NCBI RefSeq assembly: GCF_001423945.1
Contig: NZ_LMPU01000001.1
Coordinates: forward strand, 1,299,971 to 1,363,970
DNA length: 64,000 nucleotides
From: Pedobacter sp. Leaf194
Lineage (GTDB): Bacteria; Bacteroidota; Bacteroidia; Sphingobacteriales; Sphingobacteriaceae
Direction of reading: 5' to 3'
Shown here one piece after another: positions 1,324-24,894 of this stretch. Numbering within the stretch: position 1 is the first letter of the stretch; each line of letters begins with the position of its first letter. The position numbers and the translations under genes were made by a program. Below the pieces are notes generated by a model. That model saw nothing but the letters and a program-made list of their open reading frames with translations, was not told the DNA's origin and did no database searches.

Positions 1324-1346
1324 CTTGATAAATAAATAATCATCTA

Positions 1347-2081: not shown

Positions 2082-2082
2082 C

Positions 2083-2110: not shown

Positions 2111-2219
2111 ATAAATCAAATTGGTACAGATACATATTTGTTGTAACCATACCGAATAAAAAAACAGATAACAGGTAACCGTTTATGCAATTAATCAGTT
2201 AACCAACTAAACATAAAAT

Positions 2220-3416: not shown

Positions 3417-3434
3417 CCATACAAACGATACTTG

Positions 3435-3467
3435 AAAGCGGGGGACATAAAGTCACCCGCTTTTTTT
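3435..3467 (+). terminator. Rho-independent terminator after the first lepB
   Basis: AAAGCGGG pairs with CCCGCTTT across a short loop that can also pair partly (GGAC/GTC), followed by seven T. It separates the two lepB copies, so the second probably has its own promoter. Confidence 0.85.
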
Positions 3468-3568
3468 GTGCTTAACTTTAATGATACTAGGCGGTGTAAC
3501 AAAGCTTTAAGTCGGGTATCTAAGATTTGTGTTGTTTATATGCACCAAAAAGAACTAAACTAATCTTT

Positions 3569-4759: not shown

Positions 4760-4774
4760 CATTTATGCAAAATT

Positions 4775-4807
4775 AAAAAAGGCCTTAAGTAATTTAAAGC
4801 CTTTTTT
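4775..4807 (+). terminator. Rho-independent terminator after the second lepB
   Basis: AAAAAAGGC and GCCTTTTTT flank an A/T-rich inner arm (CTTAA/TTAAAG). The structure ends in a T run and closes the lepB unit before the accessory locus begins. Confidence 0.75.
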
Positions 4808-4828
4808 ATTTGGATAAAAAACTTTAAA

Positions 4829-4875
4829 AAAAAATTATTAAGTTTACACTTCTTTTCTAAAAAATTATTAAGTTT
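4829..4875 (+). promoter_or_regulatory. Two identical 17-base direct repeats 30 bases apart upstream of the ROK gene
   Basis: AAAAAATTATTAAGTTT occurs at 4829-4845 and again at 4859-4875, start to start exactly 30 bases (about three helical turns). The second copy ends 18 bases before the ATG of the ROK regulator. Phased identical boxes next to a regulator gene suggest an autoregulatory operator. Binding is inferred; the repeats are directly visible. Confidence 0.55.
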
Positions 4876-4893
4876 GTTTACAAATCCAAATAG

Positions 4894-6078
4894 ATGTCTG
4901 TAATAACTGAGAAAAACCAGCGGTTAAGGGCCAATATTATTAAGCATCTATACTATAAAAAAGTATTATCGTTAACTGCTTTGAGTAAGCTTACTCAAAA
5001 AAGCGTGCCTCTGGTTACGTCCTCTGTTAACAGTTTAATTGCAGAAGGTTTTATCCTTGAACAGGGTTTAGCGCCTTCAACCGGCGGCAGGCGGGCATCA
5101 ACATTTCTATTAAACCCATCCCACAACAAATATCTCGTTGCCGTAGCTATGGATCAGCTCATTACCCGGCTAATCATTTATGATTTGTCTGGCAAGGCGA
5201 TATTACCAGTACAACACCTTGAATTTAACGTTGAGAAGGATGATCTTGACGGTTTAATAAAGTTTATTGAAAACAGTATAAATGCTTCCAAAATAGACCG
5301 TAAATATTTACTCGGGATTGGTATTGGGATGCCCGGATTTGTGAATGTAGAAACCGGGGCAAATAATTCTTACCTGAAAACTAAAGATGGAAGCACCTTA
5401 CAAAGCTACCTGAAGAACGCGTTGAAGCTTCCGGTTTTTATAGATAATGATTCAAGCTTAATTGCCCTTGCAGAACTAAATTTTGGCGAGGCAGTTGGGC
5501 GTAAACATGTTATGGTTGTAAACATTGGCTGGGGTACAGGTTTGGGAATGATAATTAACGGGCAGCTTTACAGAGGTAGCAGTGGTTACGCCGGTGAGTT
5601 TAGCCATATACCACTCTCAGATAGCGACAATCTTTGCTCTTGCGGCAAGAGGGGCTGTTTAGAAGTTGACACTTCTTTACTTGTTATGGCTGATAATGCA
5701 GAAAAGGCCTTATTGAATGGCGCAGAATCGAGTATGCAAGAACTGTTTAAAGATAAAAGCAAACATAACGGAGACCATTTTTTAGCTGCAGTAAATGCCC
5801 AGGACCCGTTAGCAATATCTATTTTATCGAAAGCTGCCTTTAAAATTGGCAAAGGCTTATCAACTTTAATTCATATCCTTAACCCGGAATGTATTGTTCT
5901 TAGCGGCAGAGGCGCGAAAGCAGGAAAAATGTTAATTCCCTCAATTCAACAAGCGATAAACGAATTCTGTATTCCGCGTATTGCGGAACAAACAACCATT
6001 AAAATCTCGAACTTATCTGATGAAGCAGAATTACTTGCTGCAGCCAGCTTAATCATAGAAAATAGTTTATTTAAATAA
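4894..6078 (+). CDS. ROK family transcriptional regulator (NagC/XylR type)
   Basis: 394 residues. An N-terminal winged helix-turn-helix (about 12-65, KKVLSLTALSKLTQKSVPLV) is followed by a ROK sugar-kinase-like domain. That domain includes the GIGIGMPGFVN segment, a glycine-rich WGTGLGMIING loop and the zinc motif CSCGKRGCLE. Because the DNA-binding domain is present, it should be a sugar-responsive repressor or activator and not a plain kinase. It stands directly upstream of the SusC/SusD pair on the same strand, so it most likely senses a sugar released by the locus and controls it. Two phased direct repeats lie in its promoter. The ligand cannot be read from the sequence. Confidence 0.88.
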   Translation: MSVITEKNQRLRANIIKHLYYKKVLSLTALSKLTQKSVPLVTSSVNSLIAEGFILEQGLAPSTGGRRASTFLLNPSHNKYLVAVAMDQLITRLIIYDLSGKAILPVQHLEFNVEKDDLDGLIKFIENSINASKIDRKYLLGIGIGMPGFVNVETGANNSYLKTKDGSTLQSYLKNALKLPVFIDNDSSLIALAELNFGEAVGRKHVMVVNIGWGTGLGMIINGQLYRGSSGYAGEFSHIPLSDSDNLCSCGKRGCLEVDTSLLVMADNAEKALLNGAESSMQELFKDKSKHNGDHFLAAVNAQDPLAISILSKAAFKIGKGLSTLIHILNPECIVLSGRGAKAGKMLIPSIQQAINEFCIPRIAEQTTIKISNLSDEAELLAAASLIIENSLFK

Positions 6079-6171
6079 ATTCAAAACCTATAACTTATGG
6101 ATTAAAAGAAAGGAACAACAACCCGACTCCCTTAAATTAAACAAATAAATATTCAAACTAAAAAACTAATT

Positions 6172-9100
6172 ATGAAAAAAATGTACTTAAAGTGTTTAGG
6201 TACGCTGTTGTTATCTATCATAACAATAGCTGCATTTGCACAGAGAACTGTAACTGGAACAGTTAAAGACTCGAGAGGAGGTTCAATACCTGGCGTAAGT
6301 GTTGTAGAGAAAGGCACTCAAAATGGAACCTCTACCAACGCCGAGGGTAAATACACACTTAATGTAAAAGATGGCGCAACGCTAATCTTCAGATCAGTAG
6401 GCTTGGCAACGCGTGAACTATCCGCTTCAGCTAACCTAACGGTTGTTATGGAAGATGATTCTAAAGTATTAAACGAAGTAATTGTTACCGGTTTTGGTGT
6501 AAAGAAAGATGTAAGAAAGTTAAGTTATTCTGCCACTGCAGTTAGTGGTACAGAATTAGCCGAAGCCAATACCGCAAACGTTATTAATGCGTTACAGGGA
6601 AAGGTTGCCGGCGTAATGATAAACCAGGGTGCCAGTGGGCCGCAGTCATCTTCAAGAATCAGAATAAGGGGTAATGCCTCTTTAGGTAATAATACACAGC
6701 CGCTGATTGTGTTAGATGGGGTGCTTCTTGAACAAGGTACTTCAGGTGCAGATTCATGGGGAGATAATGCAGATTTTGGAAACATAATGAAGAATTTAAA
6801 TTCAGATGATTTCGAAAATATTACGGTACTAAAAGGTGCTGCTGCTTCTGCTTTATATGGTTCGAAAGCGCAGAATGGTGTTTTGTTAATTTCAACCAAA
6901 AAAGGTAGACAAACCAAAGGCCTTGGTGTTTCTGTAGCACAAACAACATCATTCGATGATGCTTATAAGTTTGTAGACCTGCAAAATCAATATGGCGGTG
7001 GTATATCTCCAACTTTTGCAAAAGATGCTAACGGTGTGGATGTTGTAGATCAATCTGCAGGATACTATGTTGGTGGATATTCATTTGGTCCGCGTTTAGA
7101 TGGTAGAATGGTAAAAGATTTAGATGGCGTGATGCGTCCATGGGTAGCGAACGACCCTTTAGATTTCTTTCAAACGGGAAAATTCATCAATACTAACGTA
7201 TCTGTTGAAGGTGCATCAGAAAATACAACTTACAGATTATCTTACACCAATTTAAACAACTCCAGCGTTTTACCTGGTAACAGATTAAAAAGAGACGCTT
7301 TTGCATTGCGTGCAACGCAAAATATATCGAAAGCAATCTCTATTGATGCGAGTGTTAACTATAGTGTTTCCAATTCACTTAACCCGGCAAGACAAGGAAG
7401 TGGTAATAATCCTTTATTTGCTTTTACTTACTACCGTCCGAGAAATGTTGATATTGCCAGCTATGTTAACAACAATATTAACCCGGTTACAGGCGGCTCG
7501 TTAAATTCAAGCAACGCTGCTTTGTATGATCCTTACGGAATCGGTGGTGTAGCTTACACGCTTCAAAATGATAACAGAACACAAAAGGAGAATAATTTAA
7601 TCGCAAATTTAGATTTCAATATTAAACTTACTCCTTGGTTATCTGGTTTATTGAGAACAAACACAAGTTACTACGGTACGCAGTATGAACGCAAAAACAG
7701 AGGTTCGGGTATCGCGTTTGCAGGTGGAGATTATGAACTTACACAGTCGGTAAATAAATCATTTAGAATTCAGGGTTTGTTAAACGCCACGAAAACTTTC
7801 GGTACCGATTTTGAATTGAATGCATCACTTGGCGCAGAAACATATCAAAAAAACATCAACAATTCTGGCCTTTACAATACCTCGTTCACCAATGGTGGCT
7901 TGAAAATACCAGATGTTTATTCAATATCAAATTCACTAAACCCAGCTAATACAAGAGCATTCCCGAATGCAGGTAAACGTACAGATGCAGTTTATTTATA
8001 CGGTGACTTATCGTGGAGAAACATGCTTACATTTAACTTTAGTGCAAGAAATGACTGGTCTTCTACGCTTACTTACAGAGATGGTTCAGGCGCATATTCT
8101 TACTTCTACCCAAGTGTAGGGCTTTCGTTTGTATTTACAGAACTTCCAGCCTTTAAGGATGGTAATTCTATTCTGTCTTTTGGTAAAATTAGAGCTGCGT
8201 ATTCTTATACAGGTCTTGATGCTGATGCACAGTACACAAACAGCGCTGGCTATTATAACCTGAATGGAAGTTTCAATAATGCCAACAACGGAAATCAATC
8301 GGTTTATGGATTTTCTGATGCGATTTTGAAAAATGCTAACTTAAAAAACCAGTTAACAAAAGAATTGGAGATCGGTGCTGATATCCGTTTCTTTAAAAAC
8401 CGTTTAGCATTTGATATGTCTTACTACAAAAGAAATTCGACAAATCAAATCTTAAGTTTTTCATTACCAGCAGAGTCTGGAGTTAACTCTCAGGCTTTAA
8501 ATGCTGGAAATATTCAAAATCAAGGTATTGAGATTTTAGTAACAGGCAAGCCAATTGTTTCTAAAGATTTTAACTGGAATGCATCAGTGAACTTCACACG
8601 TAACAGAAACAAAATCATTTCACTGGTACCGGGAGTTGATACATACGATTTAGATTTAGCGTTTGGTAACGACATTACTTCAGTTGCTAAAGTGGGTGGC
8701 TACTATGGCGAAATTATTACTGGTTCGGCATTTTCTTACTATCAAAAGAAAGATGCAAGCGGTAATCCAGTTGCTAGCCCAAGCAATGGTAAAAAAGTAT
8801 TGGGTAACACCGGTTATGGTACAACAGGTGGTTACTATACTTTTGTACGTTCGCAAGATTACGACGGAACTAAAAAGGATTTAGGTACAATGATGGAAGA
8901 TTATTTGGCGAGTACCAGACAGGATTTCTCTTTCAAAAACTTTACTATAGGATTTCAGATTGATGCTAAAATCGGAGGTTTAATGGCTTCAGGAACGCAT
9001 CAATATGGATCTGCCAATGGCTCTTTCGCAAACTCACTTTTCGGTAGAGATGAGGCATCAGGCGGTATTTCATATACGGATGCAAACGGCGTATTACAAC

Positions 9101-9528
9101 ATGATGGTATTATTCCTGATGGCGTGTTAAATGATGGATTAAAAGCTAATGGTGTAGATTTAGGTGGAATGAGTTATGCTGAAGCAGTTAAACAAGGCTT
9201 ATTAAAACCAATACCTGCCTATGCTTATTATGAAAACCTAAGCCAGTGGTCTAGCGGTATCAGAGAATATTCTGTGTTCGAGAACTCTTGGGTAGCGCTT
9301 CGTGAGGTAACTGTTGGTTATTCGGTTCCAAGCAAATATTTGCAAAAAGTTAAATTAAATAGCTTAAGCCTGAATTTAACCGGTAGAAATTTAACATATT
9401 TATATAAAACAGCTAAAGATGGCATTAACCCTGAAAGTATTTTCAGTAACAGAGCAGGCGCTTTCGCAGAATACGGAGGTTGGCCACTAGTGAGAAGTTT
9501 AGGCTTTAACATCAGGGCATCGTTTTAA
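6172..9528 (+). CDS. SusC/RagA-type TonB-dependent outer-membrane transporter
   Basis: 1118 residues. A signal peptide ends near AAFAQ (residue 24). A carboxypeptidase-regulatory-like domain follows (about 25-100, TVTGTVKDSRGGSIPGVSVV), then the SusC hallmark NEVIVTGFGVKKD and the plug domain (about 115-250) with LIVLDGVLLEQG and NITVLKGAAASALYGSKAQNG. The rest is a large beta-barrel ending in RASF, an aromatic C-terminal residue typical of outer-membrane barrels. SusC proteins import glycan or peptide ligands with energy from TonB-ExbBD, capped by a SusD lipoprotein, which is encoded 18 bases downstream. The neighbouring fucosidase and GH3 genes suggest an oligosaccharide ligand, but specificity is not readable. 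Confidence 0.95.
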   Translation: MKKMYLKCLGTLLLSIITIAAFAQRTVTGTVKDSRGGSIPGVSVVEKGTQNGTSTNAEGKYTLNVKDGATLIFRSVGLATRELSASANLTVVMEDDSKVLNEVIVTGFGVKKDVRKLSYSATAVSGTELAEANTANVINALQGKVAGVMINQGASGPQSSSRIRIRGNASLGNNTQPLIVLDGVLLEQGTSGADSWGDNADFGNIMKNLNSDDFENITVLKGAAASALYGSKAQNGVLLISTKKGRQTKGLGVSVAQTTSFDDAYKFVDLQNQYGGGISPTFAKDANGVDVVDQSAGYYVGGYSFGPRLDGRMVKDLDGVMRPWVANDPLDFFQTGKFINTNVSVEGASENTTYRLSYTNLNNSSVLPGNRLKRDAFALRATQNISKAISIDASVNYSVSNSLNPARQGSGNNPLFAFTYYRPRNVDIASYVNNNINPVTGGSLNSSNAALYDPYGIGGVAYTLQNDNRTQKENNLIANLDFNIKLTPWLSGLLRTNTSYYGTQYERKNRGSGIAFAGGDYELTQSVNKSFRIQGLLNATKTFGTDFELNASLGAETYQKNINNSGLYNTSFTNGGLKIPDVYSISNSLNPANTRAFPNAGKRTDAVYLYGDLSWRNMLTFNFSARNDWSSTLTYRDGSGAYSYFYPSVGLSFVFTELPAFKDGNSILSFGKIRAAYSYTGLDADAQYTNSAGYYNLNGSFNNANNGNQSVYGFSDAILKNANLKNQLTKELEIGADIRFFKNRLAFDMSYYKRNSTNQILSFSLPAESGVNSQALNAGNIQNQGIEILVTGKPIVSKDFNWNASVNFTRNRNKIISLVPGVDTYDLDLAFGNDITSVAKVGGYYGEIITGSAFSYYQKKDASGNPVASPSNGKKVLGNTGYGTTGGYYTFVRSQDYDGTKKDLGTMMEDYLASTRQDFSFKNFTIGFQIDAKIGGLMASGTHQYGSANGSFANSLFGRDEASGGISYTDANGVLQHDGIIPDGVLNDGLKANGVDLGGMSYAEAVKQGLLKPIPAYAYYENLSQWSSGIREYSVFENSWVALREVTVGYSVPSKYLQKVKLNSLSLNLTGRNLTYLYKTAKDGINPESIFSNRAGAFAEYGGWPLVRSLGFNIRASF

Positions 9529-9546
9529 TTCTTAAATAATACAGAT

Positions 9547-11151
9547 ATGAAAATTATAAATAAATCAAAATATTTTTTCTTGATATCTACAGCCCTGTTA
9601 TTAGGTACAGGCTGTAAGAAGGAAAAATTTGTGGAAGCAAACCTAAATCCTGAAACTTTATACACGATTAAACCAGAAGATCAATTTTTGAAAGCGGCGA
9701 GTGGCTCGCAAGATGATTTTGAGTATTTCGCTGATGTTTATCGTGCAGCAAATCTTTGGATGCAGTATAGCACGCTAAATACGGGTAACGGACTAAATTT
9801 TAATAACGTTGGTTCTCAATTTAATACCCGCTACAGCAAAATATTTTATGGTCGTTTGGCACCAGCTTTGGTTGATGCAATGAAGAACATAGAATCGATG
9901 CCGGATGCAGACAGAAATGCAAGGGTTAAAATGAAAGCGATTTCTCAAGTACTTTTATCGTACTATGCATTTTATGTTAGTGATATAAACGGCAGCATTC
10001 CTTATACTCAGGCATTTCAAGCTAGGTATGGTGGAACCATCACGCCGGCTTATGACACTCAGCAAGCAGTTTTTGCAAAAGTTGATGAAGAATTAAAAGC
10101 ATCGGTTGCAACTTTAAAATCGAATCAGGCGGCAACGCAGATTAGCCTTGGCGGTAACGATCCGTTCTTTAATGGAGATGTGGTTTCATGGACAAAAGCC
10201 GCGAATGCTTTACGTCTTAAAATCGCAGCACGTTTGATGAAGGTTGACCCGGCCAAAATGAAAGCAATTGCAACAGAAGTTTTGGCAGATCCGGTACAAA
10301 TGACTGCACCGAGCGATTCTTGGATGCTTAAAGTTGGACCTACCTTTGCTGATGCATCAGGAAACTACAACCCAGGAAACTTTGCAGCGGGTAAACCGGT
10401 GTTAGATTTTATGGTTGCTAAAGGTGACCCAAGATTATCTATATACTACCGTCCCAATCAGGCTGGAAATTATGTAGGAAGTTTTACGAGCCCGGATGCA
10501 GCAAAATTACCTGCAAACGCGGCATTGTATTCATCAATTAATAATCTATCGCAATTACAGCACAGATTGTTTACGCCAAACTATAACGAAAATGACGGTT
10601 TAGGCGCTGGTACGGGAAAAGGTTTCTTCCCTATCTTAACCTATGCAGAGTATTGCTTCCTTAGAGCAGATTTTGCGGCACGTGGTGTTACTACCGATGT
10701 AGCAGAAAACTGGTACAAAAATGGTGTTTACGCATCTGTTCAGTTTTACAGCGATAGAGCTGTTGACGCAAAAATTTCGAACTTCAACGCTGTTGCAACT
10801 TCGAGTGTAGATGCCTACTACAATCAGGTTGGGGTGAAATTTGATGCAGCTAAAGCGGCAGAACAAATTGCTTGTCAGGCTTACCTTGATTTTTACAGAC
10901 AACCGCTTGAAGCATGGGCATGGTGGAAAAGAACTGGTTTCCCAAATACCACTTCGGTGTTAGCTTGGTCTGAACTGAAAGCAAATGGAACAATTTTACC
11001 ATTAGCTCGCAGGGCAGGTATCGAAATTTTAAGCTCTTCAAACTTAAACTATGCTAACCAACAGGCTGCTATAGCAGAAATGGCTAAAAACCCTGACTTT
11101 GGCGCTGGTCCGAACGACGCTTTCGGCCGCGTTTGGTGGGACAAAAAATAA
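9547..11151 (+). CDS. SusD/RagB family nutrient-binding lipoprotein
   Basis: 534 residues. A lipoprotein signal peptide with lipobox LLLGTGC places the lipidated Cys at residue 23. The SusD-like fold is indicated by TPR-like helices in the first half (LKAASGSQDDFEYFADVYRAANLWM) and by the segment ILTYAEYCFLRADFAARG near 360, where SusD proteins typically read TYAE..LLLAEA. The C-terminus AFGRVWWDKK is typical of the SusD-like_2 subfamily. It would sit on the cell surface as the lid of the adjacent SusC barrel. A perfect 13-bp hairpin terminator follows at once, so susCD is probably its own main transcript. Confidence 0.93.
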   Translation: MKIINKSKYFFLISTALLLGTGCKKEKFVEANLNPETLYTIKPEDQFLKAASGSQDDFEYFADVYRAANLWMQYSTLNTGNGLNFNNVGSQFNTRYSKIFYGRLAPALVDAMKNIESMPDADRNARVKMKAISQVLLSYYAFYVSDINGSIPYTQAFQARYGGTITPAYDTQQAVFAKVDEELKASVATLKSNQAATQISLGGNDPFFNGDVVSWTKAANALRLKIAARLMKVDPAKMKAIATEVLADPVQMTAPSDSWMLKVGPTFADASGNYNPGNFAAGKPVLDFMVAKGDPRLSIYYRPNQAGNYVGSFTSPDAAKLPANAALYSSINNLSQLQHRLFTPNYNENDGLGAGTGKGFFPILTYAEYCFLRADFAARGVTTDVAENWYKNGVYASVQFYSDRAVDAKISNFNAVATSSVDAYYNQVGVKFDAAKAAEQIACQAYLDFYRQPLEAWAWWKRTGFPNTTSVLAWSELKANGTILPLARRAGIEILSSSNLNYANQQAAIAEMAKNPDFGAGPNDAFGRVWWDKK

Positions 11152-11162
11152 TTGCTAATATT

Positions 11163-11193
11163 AAAACCCCTAATAGTTTATTAGGGGTTTTTT
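11163..11193 (+). terminator. Rho-independent terminator after the SusD gene
   Basis: AAAACCCCTAATA pairs perfectly with TATTAGGGGTTTT across a 3-base loop (GTT), followed by more T. It lies between the SusD gene and the redoxin gene, so the downstream genes need read-through or their own promoter. This is a common way to keep susCD transcripts more abundant than the enzymes that follow. Confidence 0.92.
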
Positions 11194-11205
11194 AATATCA
11201 ACACA

Positions 11206-11790
11206 ATGAAGCTAATAAAGTTATCCATTGCAGTAGTAACTTTCATTGCCATACTTTTTAATGCTGAATTTGCCAGTTCACAGAACTTTGCATCAGTTTC
11301 GGGAATTAAATCCATTAATTTAGTTGGGGTAGATGGTAAGGCTGGCAAAATTAGTTTAAGCAAACCGGTAGTACTCATTTTTTTAAGTCCGGAATGCCCT
11401 TTATGCAAAAACTACTTACCAGGCCTGGTTAAACTCCAAAACTCGAATAAACAAATTACCTTTTATGGAATCGTTCCGGGTAAAGGTTATTCATTAAAAG
11501 AAATTAAGGCGCTTAAAGCTGATTATCAAATTAATTTTGAATTATTAAGCGACCGCGATAAAGAAATATCGAAATATTTAAAAGCGACAACTACACCAGA
11601 GGTTTTTCTCATAAATACAACAGGTGCCATCACCTACAAAGGGATGATAGATAACTGGCCTACATCCTTAGGTAAAACACGATTAGTGGTTACCCAAAAG
11701 TATTTGGAAGATGCCATATCCGATTTGTTAAAAGGAAAAATTAGTTATAAAGAAACAACCCCTATCGGATGTTTAATAAATGATATATAA
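11206..11790 (+). CDS. Exported redoxin (AhpC/TSA or TlpA-like)
   Basis: 194 residues with an N-terminal signal peptide (cleavage near ASSQ, about residue 26) and a thioredoxin-fold domain. The redox motif is SPECPLCKNYLPG with Cys64 and Cys67 (CxxC). The cis-Pro region appears as ATTTPEVFLIN. It ends in TTPIGCLIND, carrying a third cysteine in a context that I associate with redoxin domains fused to cytochrome c/copper monooxygenase modules. Its stop codon overlaps the start of exactly such a gene (TAATG). This suggests a split version of a known fusion, with the redoxin perhaps maintaining heme-binding cysteines or delivering copper. That role is inferred. Confidence 0.85.
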   Translation: MKLIKLSIAVVTFIAILFNAEFASSQNFASVSGIKSINLVGVDGKAGKISLSKPVVLIFLSPECPLCKNYLPGLVKLQNSNKQITFYGIVPGKGYSLKEIKALKADYQINFELLSDRDKEISKYLKATTTPEVFLINTTGAITYKGMIDNWPTSLGKTRLVVTQKYLEDAISDLLKGKISYKETTPIGCLINDI

Positions 11791-13124: not shown

Positions 13125-13238
13125 CGCACAGCTAAATCGAAGACTAACCTTATCGCCCGAAACATTTTTTGATGCATTCTTTCTGATTGCTGATGAAAAT
13201 TTATTGCCAGAGAAAACATCCCAGCAAATTAAAACATT

Positions 13239-16200
13239 ATGAAAATTAAATTATTTGTTCCAGCCCTGTTTTCTGTTTTAATATTTACCGTGGGTTTGGT
13301 TAAGGCACAAAACACACTATTTACGTTGATGCCTTCTAAAGAAACGAATATCAGTTTTGTAAATAAGGTAATAGAAACGGATTCATTGCATATCATGAAT
13401 TACGAATATCTTTATAATGGATCAGGGGTGGGTATAGCAGACTTTAATGGCGATGGACTGTCTGATATATTCTTTTCATCAAACTCAGGCGACAATAAGT
13501 TGTACCTGAACAAAGGCAATTTTAAGTTCGATGACATTACGAATAAGGCTGGCGTAAAGGGGAATGGCACCTGGGCAACGGGTGTTAGTGTGGTAGACAT
13601 TAATGGCGACGGTTTGCCTGATATTTATGTGTGCCATTCGGGCAAGTTCCCTGATGATAAGCTTAAAAATGAGCTCTTTATTAACCTGGGTTTAAAAGCC
13701 GGGCAGCCTGTTTTTAAAGAAATGGCGACAGCTTATGGCCTTGATGCCGTTGGAACTCAATCTACCCAGGCGGCGTTTTTTGATTACGATAATGATGGCG
13801 ATTTGGACATGTTTCTGCTCAACCACTCAAATCAAACCTATAAACCCTTCTTAAATACCAGAAAAACACGGGCAACCCCAAATATGAAATTTGGAAACCG
13901 CCTGTTCAGAAATGATTCCAAAGATGGTAAGCCTGCTTTTGTAGACGTTACATTAAGTTCGGGAATTATAAATAATGCCTTAAATTTTGGATTAAGCGTT
14001 ACCGTGAGCGATATAAATAATGATGGCTGGCCTGATGTTTATACATCCAGTGATTATACCGAACAAGATTGCTTGTACATAAACAATAAAAACGGCACTT
14101 TTTCCGAGCGCATCCGGCATTCATTAAAGCATATATCCAAGTATTCGATGGGCGCTGATATAGCCGATTATAACAATGATTCGAGGCCCGATATTGTTAC
14201 CTTGGATATGTTGCCGGAAGATAATCGCCGGCAAAAACTACTCAAAGGCGCTGATGAATACGACCAGTATCATTTATTGTTAGATAGCGGTTACTATAAA
14301 CAGCAAATGCGAAATATGCTGCATTTGAATGAAGGTACCGCAGAGGATGGGTATTTGCGCTTTAGTGAAATCGGGCAGCTGGCGGGTGTTTCCAATACCG
14401 ATTGGAGCTGGGCACCACTTTTTGCCGATTTTGACAATGATGGTTGGAAAGATTTATTTATATCCAATGGCTATCTGAGGGATTTTACAGATATGGATTT
14501 TCTAAAATATACGGTTTCAAATGCGCAGAAGGAGTCGCTAAAGCAGGGAAATTTGAAATTTCAAACTTTCGATTTAGTAAAAAAAATGCCTTCCAATCAA
14601 ATTTCTAACTATATTTTTTCCAATAACCGAAACTTAACGTTTACCAATAAAACAATAGATTGGGGTATTTCCGCACCTTCTGTATCTAATGGTTCTGCCT
14701 ACGCAGATTTGGATAATGATGGAGATTTGGATTTAATAATTTGTACCATTAACGCTCCTGTAATGGTGTATAAAAATAATGCGGAACAATCAAAATCCAA
14801 CTATTTAAAAATCAAATTAGTGGGTTCTGGCTTAAATACGGAAGCTTTGGGTGCCAAAATTTATATAAAGTCGGCAGAGAACTCGCAATACCAGGAAAAA
14901 TATGTCGTACGTGGTTACCAATCAAGCGTAGATCCAATAAACTGCTTCGGGTTGGGAAGCCAAAATAAGGCAGATCGCGTTAGAGTTGTTTGGCCAGATG
15001 GTAAGGAAAGTTTGCTGCAAAATGTAAAATCCAATCAAATGCTCACCATCAGATACGAGGAAGCCAAAATCATAAAAAACGATGTTATTGCGAAAAAGCC
15101 TGTTTTTACTGATGTAACACTGCAATCTCATTTACAATACAAGCATGTAGAAAATGAATTTATCGATTTTAAAGGAGAAACCCTGTTGCCTTATGAGTTG
15201 TCGAAATTTGGCCCGGCTATGGCTAAAGCAGACGTGAATAAGGACGGACTTGAAGATGTTTTTATTGGCGGTGCAATCGGCCAACCGGGAAAGTTATTTA
15301 TAGCCCAGAAAGATGGAAGTTTCAATGTTGCTGATTCCAAATGTTGGGAAGAAGATGCACAAAGCGAAGATGTAAACGCCGTTTTTTTCGATGCGAATGG
15401 CGATGGGTCAGTTGATTTATGGGTTGTAAGTGGTGGCAATGAATATGACGACGGTGCGCCCGAATATCAGGACCGCCTATATTTCAACGATGGTAAAGGC
15501 AATTTTAGCAAAGCCAAAGGCGCTTTACCTAAAATGTTAAGTAGTAAGCAGGCAATTTCTACCGGCGATTTTGATAACGACGGAAAAATAGATGTTTTTG
15601 TTGGTGGTATGAGTAAACCGGGTTCGTTTCCCTTATGCAGCAAAAGTTTCTTGCTTAAAAATGAAACCGCAAACGGTATAGTCAAATTTACAGATATAAC
15701 CAAAGAACTTGCACCAGAATTGGAGTATCCCGGGATGGTGGTTACAGCACTATGGCAAGACTTGAATAAAGATGGTTACCCCGAACTTTTGATAGGAGGC
15801 GATTGGATGCCGTTGATGATATTTAAAAATAGTAAGGGCAGCTTAAAACAAGATGAAGATGCTGGGTTAAAAAATACCGAAGGGATGTGGAGCAAGATTT
15901 CTGCCATGGACGTAAATGGCGATGGTAAGATGGACTTTGTGGTAGGAAACTGCGGCATAAATAATCAATACAAAACAACGCAAGAACAACCAATGACGAT
16001 TTTTGCTGACGATTTTAATAAAGACGGCGTTTTAGACCCCATCATGTGCTATTATATACAGGGCAAAAACTACCCTATGGCTTCGAGAGACGAACTACTC
16101 GACCAGATGGTTCAATTCAAAAAGAAATTCTTAAATTATCGGTCTTACGCTGAGGTTTCTATAGATCAGCTGTTCACTCCTGAGCAAATAGATAAAAGTC

Positions 16201-16586
16201 AAAAATTTTATTGCAAACAGCTTCAATCACTTATACTGATTAATGACGGTAATGGAAAATTCTCTGTAAAACCCTTATCTGTTGAAGCTCAATTTTCGAG
16301 AGTTTGGGGAATTGTGATCGATGATTTTGATAAAGACGGCATAAAAGATATCCTGTTGAGCGGGAATTTTTATCCTTACAGGGTTCAGCTCGGGCAGGCT
16401 GATGCAAGTTTGGGTTTGCTTTTAACTGGCGATGGAAAAGGGAACTTCAAAGCTGTCTCTCCCTATGAATCGGGGCTGTATATTGATGGCGATGTTCGCA
16501 ATATGCTCGAAATTAATGGCCCTTCAAAGCGAATCATTGTAGTCAAAAACAACGATGAAGCACAAGTAATTAAAGTTAATAACTAA
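13239..16586 (+). CDS. Exported FG-GAP/VCBS repeat protein with ASPIC/UnbV domain (CRTAC1-like)
   Basis: 1115 residues with a signal peptide ending at VKAQ (24). Many calcium-binding FG-GAP loops of the form DxNxDGxxD are visible. The first is DFNGDGLSD at 68-76, then DINGDGLPD, DYDNDGDLD, DINNDGWPD, DFDNDGWKD and DLDNDGDLD. An ASPIC/UnbV domain lies near 522-602 (YLKIKLVGSGLNTEALGAKI, then VRVVWPDGKE), followed by a second set of FG-GAP repeats. The repeats should form two beta-propellers, used for adhesion or glycan/protein contact outside the cytoplasm. It sits in a gene run with a copper oxidase and a haloperoxidase-type enzyme. The exact role is unknown. Confidence 0.88.
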   Translation: MKIKLFVPALFSVLIFTVGLVKAQNTLFTLMPSKETNISFVNKVIETDSLHIMNYEYLYNGSGVGIADFNGDGLSDIFFSSNSGDNKLYLNKGNFKFDDITNKAGVKGNGTWATGVSVVDINGDGLPDIYVCHSGKFPDDKLKNELFINLGLKAGQPVFKEMATAYGLDAVGTQSTQAAFFDYDNDGDLDMFLLNHSNQTYKPFLNTRKTRATPNMKFGNRLFRNDSKDGKPAFVDVTLSSGIINNALNFGLSVTVSDINNDGWPDVYTSSDYTEQDCLYINNKNGTFSERIRHSLKHISKYSMGADIADYNNDSRPDIVTLDMLPEDNRRQKLLKGADEYDQYHLLLDSGYYKQQMRNMLHLNEGTAEDGYLRFSEIGQLAGVSNTDWSWAPLFADFDNDGWKDLFISNGYLRDFTDMDFLKYTVSNAQKESLKQGNLKFQTFDLVKKMPSNQISNYIFSNNRNLTFTNKTIDWGISAPSVSNGSAYADLDNDGDLDLIICTINAPVMVYKNNAEQSKSNYLKIKLVGSGLNTEALGAKIYIKSAENSQYQEKYVVRGYQSSVDPINCFGLGSQNKADRVRVVWPDGKESLLQNVKSNQMLTIRYEEAKIIKNDVIAKKPVFTDVTLQSHLQYKHVENEFIDFKGETLLPYELSKFGPAMAKADVNKDGLEDVFIGGAIGQPGKLFIAQKDGSFNVADSKCWEEDAQSEDVNAVFFDANGDGSVDLWVVSGGNEYDDGAPEYQDRLYFNDGKGNFSKAKGALPKMLSSKQAISTGDFDNDGKIDVFVGGMSKPGSFPLCSKSFLLKNETANGIVKFTDITKELAPELEYPGMVVTALWQDLNKDGYPELLIGGDWMPLMIFKNSKGSLKQDEDAGLKNTEGMWSKISAMDVNGDGKMDFVVGNCGINNQYKTTQEQPMTIFADDFNKDGVLDPIMCYYIQGKNYPMASRDELLDQMVQFKKKFLNYRSYAEVSIDQLFTPEQIDKSQKFYCKQLQSLILINDGNGKFSVKPLSVEAQFSRVWGIVIDDFDKDGIKDILLSGNFYPYRVQLGQADASLGLLLTGDGKGNFKAVSPYESGLYIDGDVRNMLEINGPSKRIIVVKNNDEAQVIKVNN

Positions 16587-16597
16587 TAAACTGAATC

Positions 16598-17920
16598 ATG
16601 AAAACCTGTTTAACCCTTTTGTTTTTTTGTATTCACATAACTGTAAATGCCCAATGGCAAAGTAGTGAAAGCGACCCAACACCTTTGCACAGGTCGCAAA
16701 AAGCGCTGTCTGATGTTATTGTAAATGATATATTTTCACCTCCCGTTGCGAGCCGGATTTTTGCGTACGCAAACATAGCCGCCTACGAGGTGCAAGCTAA
16801 AAAAGATAAGCAGTTATTGTCTTTAACCGGCCAGTTAAACGGTTTTAGCGGTATACCGAATCTCAGTCCCAAGCAAATAAGCTATTCATTATCATCAACT
16901 TATGCTTATTGGCAGGTTGCTAAAAGGCTTGTTTTTTCAGATGCGGTAGCGCTCGATAGCCTAAACAGCATATTAAAATGGTATAAAACGAAAGGTTATC
17001 CGGACGATGTTGTAGAAAATTCTATGGCATATGGAAAAACAGTTGCTGATTCTATTTTATTCTGGGTTGATAAGGATAATTATAAGGAAACCCGAAAATC
17101 AAGACGCTACAGCATTGTAAAAAAGGAAGGTAACTGGGCGCCAACGCCTCCGGGCTATATGCCTGCCGTTGAACCTTACTGGAATAAGATCAGGCCACTG
17201 TTTTTAAAAACAGCTGATCAGTTTAAACCTGCCGCTCCACCAGTTTACAGCAAAGATAAAGACAGTCCGTTTTATGCAAACGCTAACGAGGTATACCTCA
17301 CGGTTAAGAATTTAAATAGTCAGAATCTAAGTATTGCCAAATTTTGGGACTGTAACCCGTTTTTTTTAAATGTAAACGGGCACATGAATTATGCAACGAA
17401 AAAGATATCGCCAGGGGCACATTGGATATCCATTGCCGGCATTGCCTGCAGAACGAAAAAACTAAGCTATGCGCAAAGCAGCTACACTTATACTGCTACA
17501 TGCATTTCGCTTTTCGATGCCTTTATCAGCTGTTGGGATGAAAAATACAGGCGTAATTACATCAGGCCTGAAACTTTTATAAATGCCAATATTGATGAAA
17601 GCTGGCAGCCTATTCTACAAACACCACCTTTTCCCGAATATCCAAGCGGACATAGTGTTGCATCTACAGCGGCGGCGGTGGTTTTAACCAAAATTTTTGG
17701 CGATAATTTTAACTTTGATGACAATACCGAAATCGACTATGGCCTGCCCGTAAGAAAGTTTACTTCGTTTAATGATGCTGCAAATGAAGCGGCTATAAGC
17801 AGGCTGTACGGCGGCATTCATTATAGGCCTGCAATAGAAAACGGGCAAGTGCAGGGTAGGGCTATAGCCGCTTACCAGCTGCAAAATGTAAAAATGAAAA
17901 AAAATAATTCAAAAATGTAA
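16598..17920 (+). CDS. Exported vanadium-dependent haloperoxidase / PAP2-type acid phosphatase
   Basis: 440 residues with a signal peptide ending at VNAQ (about 18). The whole vanadate/phosphate pocket shared by vanadium haloperoxidases and PAP2 phosphatases is present: Lys316-x6-Arg323-Pro324 (KYRRNYIRP), PSGH at 349-352, and Ser401-Arg402-x5-His408 (SRLYGGIH). No transmembrane bundle is seen, which favours a soluble secreted haloperoxidase-like enzyme over a lipid phosphatase. The motifs alone cannot decide between halide oxidation and phosphatase activity. It starts 11 bases after the ASPIC gene and its stop overlaps the GH29 start by one base, so it is clearly part of the same transcript. 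Confidence 0.85.
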   Translation: MKTCLTLLFFCIHITVNAQWQSSESDPTPLHRSQKALSDVIVNDIFSPPVASRIFAYANIAAYEVQAKKDKQLLSLTGQLNGFSGIPNLSPKQISYSLSSTYAYWQVAKRLVFSDAVALDSLNSILKWYKTKGYPDDVVENSMAYGKTVADSILFWVDKDNYKETRKSRRYSIVKKEGNWAPTPPGYMPAVEPYWNKIRPLFLKTADQFKPAAPPVYSKDKDSPFYANANEVYLTVKNLNSQNLSIAKFWDCNPFFLNVNGHMNYATKKISPGAHWISIAGIACRTKKLSYAQSSYTYTATCISLFDAFISCWDEKYRRNYIRPETFINANIDESWQPILQTPPFPEYPSGHSVASTAAAVVLTKIFGDNFNFDDNTEIDYGLPVRKFTSFNDAANEAAISRLYGGIHYRPAIENGQVQGRAIAAYQLQNVKMKKNNSKM

Positions 17921-19350
17921 TGAAGGTAAAATACATTTTATTAACAAGTTTAATTGCAATAGCTAAGCTTGCAAGCGCCCAGCAAAACGACATTATGCCG
18001 CAATCTTCACATTACGAAGCGCCGGCTGATCCATTAGTAAAAAAGAAATTAGATAACTGGCAGGATAAAAAGTTTGGAATGATTATCCATTGGGGATTGT
18101 ATGCAGTTCCAGGTATTATAGAATCATGGTCTATTTGTTCTGAAGATTGGATTGAGCGAGACTCGACTATATCATATGATGACTACAAGAAATGGTACTG
18201 GGATTTTAGCAAAAAGTTTAATCCTACAAAGTTCGACCCAACCCAGTGGGCAAAAGCAGGAAAGGATGCAGGCATGAAATACCTCGTATTTACAACCAAG
18301 CACCACGACGGTTTTGCCATGTTTGATACAAAACAATCTGATTTTAGTATAGCTAAAGGCCCATTTGCCAACAACCCTAAAGCTGATGTTGCTAAATATG
18401 TTTTCGACGCTTTTAGAAAGGAAGGTTTTATGATTGGTGCTTACTTCTCTAAACCCGACTGGCATTCTCAATATTATTGGTGGCAGAAATACGCTACGGC
18501 GGACAGAAACAACAATTACGACATAAGAAAATATCCGTGGAGATGGAATAAATTTAAGGATTTCACCTACAACCAAATCGGCGAGCTGATGCACAATTAT
18601 GGTAACGTAGATATCTTGTGGCTTGATGGTGGCTGGGTTCGTCCCCTCGAATCCGTTAATGCAGAAGTTTTGTCCTGGGGAGCAAATATCCCGAAATGGA
18701 GTCAGGACATTGATATGCCAAAAATTGCAGACATGGCACGAAAAGCGCAGCCTGGTTTAATTATGGTGGATAGGACCGTCCACGGGCTCTATGAGAATTA
18801 CCAAACTCCTGAACAAAAGATTCCCGAAAAACAGTTAGACTATCCTTGGGAAAGTTGCATGACGTTGGGTGGGGCATGGGGATTTGTGCCAAACGACAAC
18901 TACAAATCTGCTTCGGAGGTTATTAATAAGTTGGTGGAAATTGTAGCAAAAGGTGGCAGCTTGCTGCTAGGCGTCGGGCCAAAACCTGACGGAACTTTTC
19001 CTGCTGAGGTGACAAAAAAACTAGAAGATATTGGAAAGTGGACCTCCATCAATGGTAAGGCCATTTACAATACAAGGGCTGCAAAAAACTACCACAGCGG
19101 GCAAACCTGGTTTACACAGGCTAAGGATGGTAAAAAACTTTTTGCAATCTATTGCTTAACAGCTGATGAGAAGTTGCCAGCTAAAATTAACTGGAGCGGG
19201 AATGTACCAAAGAAAGGATCGGATGTTAAACTAATTTCGACGGGTAAAAACGTAAAATGGAAGGAAGCGAACGGAACTGTTAGTTTAGAGATTCCAAAAA
19301 ATATAAATTCAAATTCTGCTCTGGCTTTTGAGTTTAGTCCTCAAAACTAA
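17920..19350 (+). CDS. Alpha-L-fucosidase, GH29
   Basis: 476 residues with a signal peptide ending near LASAQ (21). The GH29 barrel shows the FGMIIHWGLYAVPG segment (52-65), TTKHHDGFAMFD (125-136) and the nucleophile motif VDILWLDGGW with Asp236. A beta-sandwich-like C-terminal region follows from about 385. GH29 enzymes release terminal L-fucose by a retaining mechanism, and the location should be periplasmic. The ATG overlaps the stop of the haloperoxidase-like gene, and a GH3 gene follows 15 bases later. A second GH29 enzyme of different architecture lies on the minus strand at 24895-26727. Linkage preference is not readable. Confidence 0.93.
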   Translation: MKVKYILLTSLIAIAKLASAQQNDIMPQSSHYEAPADPLVKKKLDNWQDKKFGMIIHWGLYAVPGIIESWSICSEDWIERDSTISYDDYKKWYWDFSKKFNPTKFDPTQWAKAGKDAGMKYLVFTTKHHDGFAMFDTKQSDFSIAKGPFANNPKADVAKYVFDAFRKEGFMIGAYFSKPDWHSQYYWWQKYATADRNNNYDIRKYPWRWNKFKDFTYNQIGELMHNYGNVDILWLDGGWVRPLESVNAEVLSWGANIPKWSQDIDMPKIADMARKAQPGLIMVDRTVHGLYENYQTPEQKIPEKQLDYPWESCMTLGGAWGFVPNDNYKSASEVINKLVEIVAKGGSLLLGVGPKPDGTFPAEVTKKLEDIGKWTSINGKAIYNTRAAKNYHSGQTWFTQAKDGKKLFAIYCLTADEKLPAKINWSGNVPKKGSDVKLISTGKNVKWKEANGTVSLEIPKNINSNSALAFEFSPQN

Positions 19351-19365
19351 TATTAAAATTATAAA

Positions 19366-22041
19366 ATGAAATCCCAAACTGTCATCATCCTGCTTATTTT
19401 AATTACTTTAAATTGTAGCCTATTTGCCCAGCAAAACAAAATCAATACGCAGGCAAACTATAAAAATCCAAAAATAAGTATAGATGAACGGGTAAAGGAT
19501 CTTTTATCGAGGATGACGCCTCAGGAAAAATTCTGGCAGCTATTTATGGTTCCGGGCGATGTTAACGGAATAAAAAATGGCATCTATAAAAACGGAATTT
19601 TTGGACTTCAAATTAGTGCACAGTCGGGCGGTGGCGGCGAAGCCCAGCAAATGTTGAGTTACAATACAACTGAAAATGCCTTTACGCTCGCGAAAAAAGT
19701 AAATCAGCTTCAGCGTTATTTTGTAAAAGAGACAAGGCTTGGCATTCCAATGCTCGTTTTCGACGAGGCTTTACATGGTTTAGTACGACAAGGCGCAACA
19801 GCTTTTCCTCAGTCGATTGGTCTTGCAGCCACCTTTGACACCTTAATGATAGGCCAAATAGGCAAATCCATCGCCAAGGAAGCGAAATTAAGGGGTATTC
19901 GAGATGTGTTAGCGCCTGTTATCAACATTGCCGATGATGTGCGTTGGGGGAGAACGGAAGAAACTTATGGCGAAGATCCATATTTAACAAAGGTACTCGG
20001 ACACGCTTTTATGAATGCAATAGAAAGGGAAAACGTGGTCGTAACGCCGAAGCATTTCATTGCTAATGTTGGAGATGGTGGACGGGACAGTTACCCAATA
20101 GAAAAGAATGAAAGATTTTTAGAGGAAATTCATTTCCCGGCATTCAAGGATGCGGTTGAAACTGTAAACATTCGTTCGGTGATGACTTCTTACAACAGCG
20201 TTGATGGAACGCCAGCAACATCAAATTACTGGCTTTTAACGGATGTTTTAAAAAAGCAATGGGGTTTCAAGGGTTTTGTAATTTCGGATGCCGGCGCAGT
20301 AGGAGGGGCGAATGTGCTCCACAACACTGCAGCTAATTATGAAGAAGCAACGGTACAAGCGTTTAACGGTGGCCTCGATGTTATTTTTCAGGTCGAGTAT
20401 GACCATTACAAGCTTTTCATCCCACCCTTTCTAAATGGTAGCATCCCTCAGGAAAGAATAGACGATGCCGTTTCAAGAGTATTACGTGCAAAATTCGAGT
20501 TAGGCCTTTTTGAAAATCCTTACGTTTCTGAAAGCGATGCCAAGGCTTCGCTTACTGATTTTTCTAATAAAAAACTGGTTAAACAAGCGGCTTTGGAATC
20601 TTTTGTTTTGCTAAAAAACAACAAACAGGTTTTGCCTTTAAAGCAACAATCAAACATTTTGGTATTGGGTGAAGATGCAACTGAAGCTCGTTTGGGTGGA
20701 TATAGTGGCACAGGAAAAGGTAAAATCAGTATTTTGGATGGTATCAAAAGTTACGCAAAAAATGTGGTCGTTAATTATACGCAGGGAAGTTTTCGCAGCA
20801 TTCAAGATTATGTGGTAATAGATTCCGCTTTTTTGACTTCAGGCGGGAAGAAGGGTTTATCGGCTGAATATTTTAATTCTACAGATTTATCGGGAGCGCC
20901 CGTGTTTAAAAGAATTGATAAACGAGTGGATTTTATGTGGACGCTCTATGCGCCTGATGAGCATTTGAGTAGCGACAATTATTCTGTTCGATGGCAGGGT
21001 GACTTAAAGGTCCTCAAATCAGGAACCTATAAAATCGGTTTGGAAGGAAACGATGGTTACCGCTTATTTATCAATGGCAATTTGCTTATAGACCAGTGGG
21101 ATAAGCGTTCTTACCACACCAGGTTGGCAGATTTTACATTCGAGGGGAACAAATCTTATCCGGTTAAAATTGAATTTAGGGAACCTAAAGGAAATGCGCA
21201 CATTAAGTTGGTTTGGAACTATGAGGTTGAAGATAAAACATTTTCTGAGCTTGAAAAAGCGAAAAATCTGGCTAAAGATGCCGACATAGTTGTAATTGCA
21301 GCTGGTATAAAAGAAGGTGAGTTTCTCGATAGGGCAATGCTGAATTTACCCGGAAACCAGGAGAAACTGATCAAGGAAATGGCAAAAACAGGCAAGCCGG
21401 TAGTTGTTTTACTGGTTGGTGGGAGCGCGATAAACATGCAGAACTGGATTGACGATGTACCGGCGATTTTAAATGTCTGGTACCCCGGTGAGGCTGGTGG
21501 AACTGCCGTTGCTGAAACCTTATTTGGCAATTCCAATCCATCTGGAAAGCTTCCCATAACTTACCCTGTACATGAAGCACAATTGCCGCTGGTATATAAC
21601 CATAAACCAACTGGCCGTGGCGATGATTACAATAATTTAAGTGGTGAAGCACTGTTTCCGTTTGGCTACGGTTTAAGTTATACTCAGTTTAAGTATAGCG
21701 AATTGACGATTGAGAAAAATAGAATTAAGGCTGGCGACAAGGTGTCTGTAAAGTTCAAACTTAAAAACACAGGCAATTATGACGGCACTGAAGTGGTTCA
21801 GCTATACCTCCGGGATATTTTGTCGAGCGTTGCACAACCCGTTTTGGCGCTTAAAAATTTTAAAAGAGTTTACCTTAAAGCCGGAGAGGAGCAGGAAGTT
21901 ATACTCGAGCTAGGCCCTGAGGCATTTCAGATACTCAATAAGCAATTGAAATGGGAAATTGAACCTGGCGACTTCAGAATAATGATCGGTTCATCTAGCA
22001 AGGATTTACAGTTGAAAGCTAATCTGACGGTCGAAAAATAA
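19366..22041 (+). CDS. GH3 beta-glycosidase with inserted PA14 domain
   Basis: 891 residues with a signal peptide ending at SLFAQ (about 22). The N-terminal GH3 domain carries GIPMLVFDEALHG (126-138), VTPKHF and the nucleophile motif GFKGFVISDAGAV with Asp308. The C-terminal GH3 domain starts near 400 and is interrupted by a PA14 module (about 495-610; GLSAEYFNSTDLSGAPVF through LEGNDGYRLFINGNLLIDQW). It resumes at DADIVVIAAGIKEGEFLDRA, with the likely acid/base Glu in this loop. A fibronectin-III-like domain ends the protein. PA14 insertions in GH3 enzymes usually shape substrate binding at the active site. It probably acts on oligosaccharides after fucose removal. Exact specificity is unknown. 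Confidence 0.93.
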   Translation: MKSQTVIILLILITLNCSLFAQQNKINTQANYKNPKISIDERVKDLLSRMTPQEKFWQLFMVPGDVNGIKNGIYKNGIFGLQISAQSGGGGEAQQMLSYNTTENAFTLAKKVNQLQRYFVKETRLGIPMLVFDEALHGLVRQGATAFPQSIGLAATFDTLMIGQIGKSIAKEAKLRGIRDVLAPVINIADDVRWGRTEETYGEDPYLTKVLGHAFMNAIERENVVVTPKHFIANVGDGGRDSYPIEKNERFLEEIHFPAFKDAVETVNIRSVMTSYNSVDGTPATSNYWLLTDVLKKQWGFKGFVISDAGAVGGANVLHNTAANYEEATVQAFNGGLDVIFQVEYDHYKLFIPPFLNGSIPQERIDDAVSRVLRAKFELGLFENPYVSESDAKASLTDFSNKKLVKQAALESFVLLKNNKQVLPLKQQSNILVLGEDATEARLGGYSGTGKGKISILDGIKSYAKNVVVNYTQGSFRSIQDYVVIDSAFLTSGGKKGLSAEYFNSTDLSGAPVFKRIDKRVDFMWTLYAPDEHLSSDNYSVRWQGDLKVLKSGTYKIGLEGNDGYRLFINGNLLIDQWDKRSYHTRLADFTFEGNKSYPVKIEFREPKGNAHIKLVWNYEVEDKTFSELEKAKNLAKDADIVVIAAGIKEGEFLDRAMLNLPGNQEKLIKEMAKTGKPVVVLLVGGSAINMQNWIDDVPAILNVWYPGEAGGTAVAETLFGNSNPSGKLPITYPVHEAQLPLVYNHKPTGRGDDYNNLSGEALFPFGYGLSYTQFKYSELTIEKNRIKAGDKVSVKFKLKNTGNYDGTEVVQLYLRDILSSVAQPVLALKNFKRVYLKAGEEQEVILELGPEAFQILNKQLKWEIEPGDFRIMIGSSSKDLQLKANLTVEK

Positions 22042-22045
22042 AAAA

Positions 22046-23131: not shown

Positions 23132-23238
23132 TCTTATTTGTTGATTAAGGAACACAGCATAAATTACAACGCTTAGCTTTTTAATATAACGCCTTTATGT
23201 TATTGGCTAAAGTTGAATATTACAGCTGTTATATTTCT

Positions 23239-24825: not shown

Positions 24826-24894
24826 AATTAGCGAAAGTAATGCAATTTAAGAATAATCATAAAGCTGAATAACTATTTTACAATTTTTAAATAA

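Follow-up and report, generated by a model that had tools for sequence, protein, structure and literature searches.

Introduction

Can a glycan utilisation locus of the Bacteroidota carry an exported, oxygen-using step? Such loci are usually described as systems of hydrolases and lyases. The question is raised by a locus of Pedobacter sp. Leaf194, at positions 4894-22041 of a 64,000-nucleotide stretch of contig NZ_LMPU01000001.1 (positions 1,299,971 to 1,363,970; this whole stretch is called the window). The locus consists of nine open reading frames (ORFs), all on the + strand: a ROK regulator, a SusC/SusD pair (SusCD), a redoxin, a PHM-type copper monooxygenase, an ASPIC protein, a haloperoxidase homologue, GH29 and GH3. 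The original prediction, made from the DNA alone, was that the redox enzymes and the glycosidases form one system. We find that the locus is a real and conserved variant of the polysaccharide utilisation locus, undescribed as far as open-access searches reach, and we infer its mechanism. SusCD, redoxin and PHM are the constant core, the ASPIC protein and the haloperoxidase are a pair with a wider distribution, and GH29-GH3 is separable. The best reading is that an exported O2-using module oxidises a glycoconjugate taken in by SusCD.

Architecture of the locus

The nine ORFs are the following.

4894..6078, + strand: ROK-family regulator (PF00480, 151.2 bits)
6172..9528, + strand: SusC-type TonB-linked outer-membrane porin (TIGR04056 of NCBIfam, 564.6 bits; Pfam Plug and CarbopepD_reg_2)
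9547..11151, + strand: SusD-like protein (PF12771, SusD-like_2, 190.7 bits)
11206..11790, + strand: exported redoxin with a CPLC motif (PF00578, AhpC-TSA/redoxin, 46.4 bits)
11790..13124, + strand: predicted exported cytochrome-c-like/PHM-type copper monooxygenase (borderline Cu2_monoox_C; ligand residues; predicted fold)
13239..16586, + strand: FG-GAP/ASPIC (CRTAC1-like) propeller protein (PF13517, 246.4 bits; PF07593, UnbV_ASPIC, 69.9 bits)
16598..17920, + strand: vanadium haloperoxidase homologue (PDB 4cit, E 7.5e-140; pocket residues; Pfam PAP2)
17920..19350, + strand: GH29 alpha-L-fucosidase (PF01120, Alpha_L_fucos, 335.9 bits)
19366..22041, + strand: GH3 glycosidase with a PA14 insert, beta-xylosidase-like (PF00933, PF01915, PF07691, Fn3-like; best PDB match 7zb3, a beta-xylosidase)

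Two marks of a polysaccharide utilisation locus are present. Specifically, the SusC and SusD homologues adjoin, and two carbohydrate-active enzymes, GH29 and GH3, lie in the run on the same strand with gaps of -1 and 15 bases. The spacing across the final six genes is -1, 114, 11, -1 and 15 bases, and gene order, coordinates, strand and gaps are exactly as originally claimed. Signal peptides had been assigned to all six of these products, and on inspection by eye each starts with a hydrophobic segment that leads to a credible cleavage site. The redoxin cysteine pair is common among relatives, with CxxC in 60 of 76 aligned redoxin rows. RNA structure in the 114-base gap before the ASPIC gene is not above that of shuffled sequences (z 0.60).

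SusCD, redoxin and PHM form the constant core

Named genomes were searched with the copper enzyme, and the best 80 of 186 relatives yielded 76 loci from Pedobacter, Chitinophaga, Flavihumibacter, Ferruginibacter, Dyadobacter and others. Neighbours up to 10 kb on each side were identified from ORF calls that were compared by phmmer with a set of 30 query proteins (E 1e-10), and absences hold within these limits. The sequence of the Dyadobacter and Persicitalea loci ends at about SusD; GH29, and GH29 only, was checked there by whole-genome search.

SusC and SusD are each present in 73 of the 76 loci and redoxin in 64, followed by ASPIC (44), ROK (40) and haloperoxidase (39). The window-type GH29 is the best query in 21 loci (19 in the window's own sequence cluster; 18 above 400 bits), an exported alpha/beta hydrolase is found in ten, a second kind of GH29 in nine, GH3 in seven and GH125 in three. 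ASPIC is missing from 32 loci, of which 31 have SusC. The neighbourhood survey proposed in the original prediction therefore confirms that SusCD recurs beside PHM, but the ASPIC and haloperoxidase genes accompany it in only part of the loci and their pair mostly occurs without SusCD elsewhere.

The phylogeny of PHM leads to the same core. In a tree of 123 PHM rows, the window lies inside one group of 97 (SH-aLRT 98), with Pedobacter rows nearest to it, and SusC is within 6 kb of 94 of the 97. Two of the three exceptions (L128, L133) are truncated by the contig, which leaves L125 as the genuine one. The window is itself one of the 123 aligned rows, as are two loci present in duplicate (L018 = L063, L021 = L103); the duplicates were dropped from the tree. 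The fewest changes on the tree are 5 for SusC, 5 for ASPIC, 8 for haloperoxidase and 8 for redoxin. An accidental linkage of SusCD and the redox genes is ruled out by the counts of 73/76 loci and 94/97 tree rows, and the gene order is beyond chance because it recurs in many genera. In Pedobacter soli DSM 18609 (L058), all nine genes recur in the order seen in the window. The claimed link between the redox genes and the SusCD pair thus stands.

A PHM relative is present in 20 of the 296 genomes of a phylum sample. The three stretches at 46% identity or above (G332, G156, G308) all have SusCD, and SusC is found in two (L139, L149) of the 17 at 41% identity or below. A family sample comprises 151 genomes, 14 of them with a PHM relative; the six at 52% identity or above, the window included, all have SusCD. 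The eight others carry a more distant PHM; six of them (all but G049 and G070) contributed nine loci, several of these on short contigs, and neither SusC nor SusD was found there. The genomes with SusCD-tied PHM span at least four family codes (f1, f2, f9, f10). According to the original prediction, redox genes in relatives lacking SusCD and glycosidases would make the linkage accidental. Such relatives exist in part: ASPIC-haloperoxidase without SusCD is common and the majority of the distant PHM relatives lack SusCD, but close PHM relatives keep it.

The composition around the core differs between genera. In Chitinophaga, 16 of 18 PHM loci have SusC, one has ASPIC and none has haloperoxidase; two PHM genes and a LacI regulator are often present. 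In Dyadobacter, PHM-ASPIC-haloperoxidase precedes SusCD, and redoxin was not found in the eight loci.

A redoxin-PHM pair amid housekeeping-type genes, without SusCD, was also seen in small genomes (g11, g23; L024-L028).

The copper enzyme has the predicted fold and ligands of PHM

Pfam places the copper enzyme at the border of Cu2_monoox_C (22.6 bits; cut-off 23.0) and below the cut-off of Haem_bd (19.8; cut-off 27), and phmmer against solved chains gave no match at E 1. Six positions, H189, H190, H265, H339, H341 and M424, are invariant in 123/123 aligned PHM rows. By their pattern, we take them to be the PHM ligands of CuH (three His) and CuM (two His, one Met). An N-terminal CxxCH motif (C44, C47, H48) is likewise invariant in all 123 rows.

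An AlphaFold2 model was made from 46 sequences, with a predicted local distance difference test score (pLDDT) of 89.4. It matches PHM (6ao6) with Z 19.7 and a root-mean-square deviation of 3.2 (259 aligned), and dopamine beta-hydroxylase (DBH) with Z 19.5. Both the two-domain fold and the CuH/CuM ligands of PHM/DBH are thus found in the modelled enzyme. The next family in the fold comparison is PNGase F. A jelly roll is common to both, but Z is 7.9 for PNGase F versus 19.7 for PHM, and a PNGase-like identity was rejected. On the model, the copper enzyme is a PHM/DBH-fold protein with both copper-ligand sets and a c-heme motif in front; the invariant ligands and the predicted fold bear out the copper monooxygenase originally called. 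M80 may be the second heme ligand, because this Met of an MPPW motif is invariant in both the eight-row and the 46-row alignments.

The ASPIC protein and the haloperoxidase are a wider pair

The haloperoxidase matches PDB 4cit over residues 4-433 with 470 bits; 4cit and 4usz are presumably the Zobellia iodoperoxidase. The vanadate pocket, which we take to be Lys, Arg, Ser, Gly, His, Arg, His, is complete in the window protein (K316, R323, S350, G351, H352, R402, H408), and all seven residues are invariant in 39/39 module haloperoxidase rows (the window and one duplicate pair included). By homology, the PAP2 protein is a vanadium haloperoxidase.

Besides its ASPIC domain, the ASPIC protein has twelve motifs that resemble FG-GAP calcium sites. 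Its model (pLDDT 81.4; 90 residues below 50) matches murine CRTAC1 with Z 40.9 and has the CRTAC1/ASPIC arrangement of an FG-GAP propeller followed by an ASPIC/UnbV domain. A fold search with the second propeller, covering mainly residues 617-1115, matched aldos-2-ulose dehydratase, which acts on oxidised sugars, with Z 28.4. Many unrelated propellers score 24-30, and the predicted likeness is only a lead.

Among 20 haloperoxidases of the phylum sample, ASPIC is within 6 kb of 15, SusC or SusD is within 8 kb of three, and PHM is in none of the fetched stretches. For 25 haloperoxidases in PHM-free loci of the family sample, ASPIC is near 21 and SusC or SusD near nine. None of these 25 (several on short contigs) has GH29 within 10 kb, which we count in favour of the function proposed below.

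The pairs without SusCD across the phylum (L157-L176, L033-L055) often include a second ASPIC gene and, in some cases, a gene that is GH65-like.

The regulator and parallel distances

In a ROK tree, the window ROK belongs to a six-row set (support 95). Four of the five others stand ahead of GH29 loci (L065, L068, L080, G013); L069 is the exception. In P. frigoris (L074), each block is preceded by one of two sister ROK copies. It is therefore probable that the redox and GH29 blocks respond to one type of signal.

Pairwise distances of PHM correlate with those of ASPIC (0.89, n=44), haloperoxidase (0.89, n=39), ROK (0.80, n=41), redoxin (0.69, n=65) and GH29 (0.66, n=19). In 999 permutations, none was as high for any of the correlations, in a statistic that ignores species kinship.

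Proposed function and alternatives

The nine genes could form one operon that takes up a glycan or glycopeptide bearing fucose and includes an exported step that consumes oxygen, a proposal that we place somewhat short of probable. SusCD would bind and import the oligomer, the established role of this family. Like PHM, the copper enzyme would hydroxylate a C-H beside a hetero-atom, by which an N- or O-linked group would be broken or trimmed. Its own c-heme motif domain would pass electrons to the copper sites, replacing ascorbate, and redoxin would keep cysteines or copper sites reduced. The ASPIC protein may bind or position the substrate, and the haloperoxidase may oxidise halide or substrate with peroxide, possibly derived from the monooxygenase; these two roles are the weakest step. 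GH29 and GH3 would afterwards take off fucose together with a beta-linked sugar, for example xylose, and the ROK type common to redox and GH29 loci would control the whole operon. That the redox enzymes oxidise the substrate or a cap ahead of fucose removal, as originally supposed, is plausible.

Conservation of the core, the intact sites, the PHM fold, the ROK grouping and the parallel distances are counted in support, as is an enrichment of GH29. Specifically, GH29 is within 10 kb of PHM in 6/6 family-sample genomes with PHM at 52% identity or above, the window included. These genomes hold 5, 12, 4, 6, 2 and 12 GH29 rows (41 in total) and at least 562 SusC rows (the counts in G078 and G019 are lower bounds, with 150 candidates scored). 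By calculation, about 0.7-5% of places per genome would have such a GH29 neighbour.

Several observations weigh against a single operon function. The six genomes are related to one another and were chosen by PHM similarity. In 14 further genomes (eight Dyadobacter, four Chitinophaga, Persicitalea and Runella), 0/20 close-type PHM genes have GH29 within 10 kb, a result that slightly lowered our odds on one operon and raised those on two loci. On the PHM tree, GH29 must have changed at least 11 times. Any glycosidase or PNGase among those searched is found in only 24 of the 76 PHM loci, and the window operon itself lacks PNGase, GH18, GH20, GH92 and GH125 by Pfam. ASPIC-haloperoxidase elsewhere in the phylum is mostly without SusCD. 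The distances of SusD and SusC track PHM least (r 0.61, n=71, and 0.60, n=73), which suggests that SusCD pairs have been exchanged at times, and the parallel distances could arise from shared species history alone. In addition, the congener G013 has lepB-ROK-SusC-SusD-GH29-Ldh2-BshC in the slot of the window operon, and no PHM or haloperoxidase match was found in G013.

Other arrangements were seen as well. In G140 (L020), SusC-SusD-redoxin-PHM is followed by PNGase F and then by ROK-SusC-SusD-GH29-GH3; in L065, L068, L072, L073 and L080, PHM-ROK-GH29-GH3 occurs without a second SusCD. Because of these arrangements, we favour a merger as the origin of the window operon: two adjacent loci would have been joined and the second SusCD lost. 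A single indivisible oxidative-plus-hydrolytic operon is ruled out by G013, by the glycosidase count and by the PHM genes with no GH29 within 10 kb in the 14 further genomes. The link between GH29 and PHM is confined to part of the range, since it holds in 6/6 genomes of the window's family but for none of the 20 PHM genes in the 14 further genomes. The original claim that redox genes and glycosidases are one system is thus not supported in that form; what is supported is the enrichment of GH29 beside the redox genes in the window's family.

GH29 also lies 16-19 kb from PHM in three of the four Chitinophaga genomes (G450, G451, G453), maybe by chance or through a loose link.

If the merger is one of position only, SusCD-redoxin-PHM, with or without ASPIC-haloperoxidase, would handle a substrate other than a fucosylated glycan (a peptide, a phenolic or another small molecule), and GH29-GH3 would merely share its slot and regulator type, the second SusCD having been lost. 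We regard this explanation as possible, if doubtful. It accounts for the ROK-SusCD-GH29 set without redox genes in the G013 slot, for L020 and L074, where both sets are adjacent and each has its own SusCD, for the GH29-free surroundings of PHM in the Dyadobacter, Persicitalea, Runella and Chitinophaga genomes and for the many changes of GH29 on the tree. The GH29 enrichment in the window's family and the sister ROK pair ahead of both sets in L074 argue against it, as does the presence of GH29 of the window's cluster (19 loci) next to PHM in Parapedobacter and Parafilimonas and in Chitinophagaceae such as Ferruginibacter, Flavisolibacter and Paracnuella. The redox genes might instead serve chemical defence or detoxification (of reactive halogen, peroxide, or plant or algal phenolics) at the feeding site and have no part in nutrient breakdown. 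The haloperoxidase homology, the ASPIC-haloperoxidase pairs without SusCD and the reported rise of a Zobellia iodoperoxidase on a brown alga (PMC9296495) agree with such a role. However, the tightest link is that of PHM, not haloperoxidase, to SusCD, and it persists in 31 of the 32 ASPIC-free loci, which makes defence improbable. Least likely is that the PAP2-fold protein is a phosphatase acting on the glycan or glycopeptide, its vanadate pocket serving no peroxidase chemistry. Phosphatases and haloperoxidases have this pocket in common, and Pfam names PAP2 only (42 bits), but the nearest solved protein by far is a haloperoxidase and the seven pocket residues never vary among the module rows.

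Candidate substrates

The genes beside PHM in relatives offer clues to the substrate under the proposed uptake function. In single or few relatives these are PNGase F (L020), GH18 (L021), GH125 with GH20 (L018) and GH92 (L088); GH35 and a sulfatase are also found. The check that gave GH92, GH35 and the sulfatase otherwise returned ordinary neighbours (a K+ transporter, a multiheme cytochrome, redoxin, CBM9 and FecR), together with two proteins to which no family was assigned. Elsewhere in the host genome there are a PNGF-II-like PNGase (652 bits; L156) and a FucP homologue above cut-off. In Bacteroides, GH3 and GH29 remove beta1,2-xylose and core alpha1,3-fucose from plant N-glycans (PMC9522356). 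On the strength of these neighbours, the host PNGase and FucP and the Bacteroides precedent, the leading candidate, to which we give perhaps a quarter of our confidence, is a plant- or insect-type N-glycan or glycopeptide. The combination that would mark N-glycan degradation, a PNGase or endo-glycosidase with an alpha-mannosidase, was not found in the locus.

In G021 (L019), FucP above cut-off and an altronate-dehydratase-like gene lie within about 20 kb, which suggests oxidative L-fucose breakdown beside that locus.

The L019 run comprises FucP, altronate-dehydratase-like, SDR and amidohydrolase-like genes, assigned partly by Pfam and partly guessed from sequence starts. The host PNGF-II-like gene adjoins a gene that, guessed from its sequence start, is gyrase/topoisomerase-like.

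Flanking features

Two features precede the ROK gene.

4774..4808, strand not assigned: terminator-like hairpin in the interval that separates ROK from the signal peptidase gene (a scan gave a 15-pair stem on the - strand)
4869..4876, + strand: TAnnTTTG promoter-like box, the sole intergenic one among eight boxes in 4601-22100

TAnnTTTG is the Bacteroidota promoter consensus, and sequence resembling the 4869 box also lies upstream of ROK in relatives.

In several Pedobacter, the locus occupies one chromosomal slot, with DapB-signal peptidase genes on one side and Ldh2-BshC on the other, and its contents differ by species. In the window, the flanks of the slot are 577-4759 and 22046-28890, and the first includes a tandem pair of signal peptidase I genes (2220-4759). 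Another, longer GH29 (622 aa) is encoded on the - strand at 24895-26763, just beyond the operon; its closest proteins are found in nine of the 76 PHM loci. RpoB, MutS, DsbD, glutaminase-like, UbiA and amino-acid-kinase neighbours were not counted as parts of the locus; they look like ordinary genomic neighbours.

Relation to known systems and significance

The locus resembles Sus-type polysaccharide utilisation loci in having a SusC/SusD pair, exported glycosidases and a sugar-type regulator in one run. It differs in that the constant partner of SusCD is a c-heme/copper monooxygenase, whereas glycosidases are optional. The window enzyme has the predicted fold, two copper sites and six ligands of PHM/DBH, but only 11-16% identity to them, with an N-terminal CxxCH domain and a SusCD context of its own. 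We know of no assigned substrate for this bacterial type of PHM, on the strength of literature searches that touched on the question but were not aimed at it. The haloperoxidase is homologous over its full length to Zobellia 4cit/4usz and has their vanadate pocket, but sits in a SusCD-PHM operon. No apparent description of the locus, or of haloperoxidase, PHM or ASPIC with SusCD, was found in the open-access literature that was searched (subscription papers and preprints were outside the scope).

Among known systems, the P450 demethylation of a porphyran sugar (PMC10033563) comes closest to an oxidative step in a locus of this sort. There too, a monooxygenase and redox partners lie beside glycoside hydrolases; that system uses a cytochrome P450 and ferredoxin on 6-O-methyl-galactose, whereas here the exported copper/c-heme enzyme is of another family. 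The Bacteroides plant N-glycan system (PMC9522356) likewise has GH29, GH3 and SusC/D, together with a PNGase active on such glycans. Its loci are scattered over the genome with GH92, GH2 and PNGase, and redox genes are not mentioned in the available part of the paper; here, the GH29/GH3 specificity is putative.

According to a 2016 paper, lytic polysaccharide monooxygenases (LPMOs) had not been discovered in Bacteroidetes (PMC5127042). It is conceivable, though unlikely, that the c-heme/PHM enzyme is their functional counterpart in Bacteroidota, namely a copper monooxygenase with a built-in electron donor that cleaves glycans or glycopeptides. Hydroxylation beside a hetero-atom outside the cytoplasm would then break N- or O-linked groups, and the product would go to the enzyme's own SusCD. 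The Chitinophaga type, with just SusCD-redoxin-PHM, would in that case be a minimal form of oxidative utilisation locus that lacks any glycoside hydrolase. With a conserved unit, named strains and invariant residues, the questions of substrate and reaction are directly testable. Through a SusCD-tied copper monooxygenase, these bacteria would be able to attack glycans, or another imported nutrient, by oxidation.

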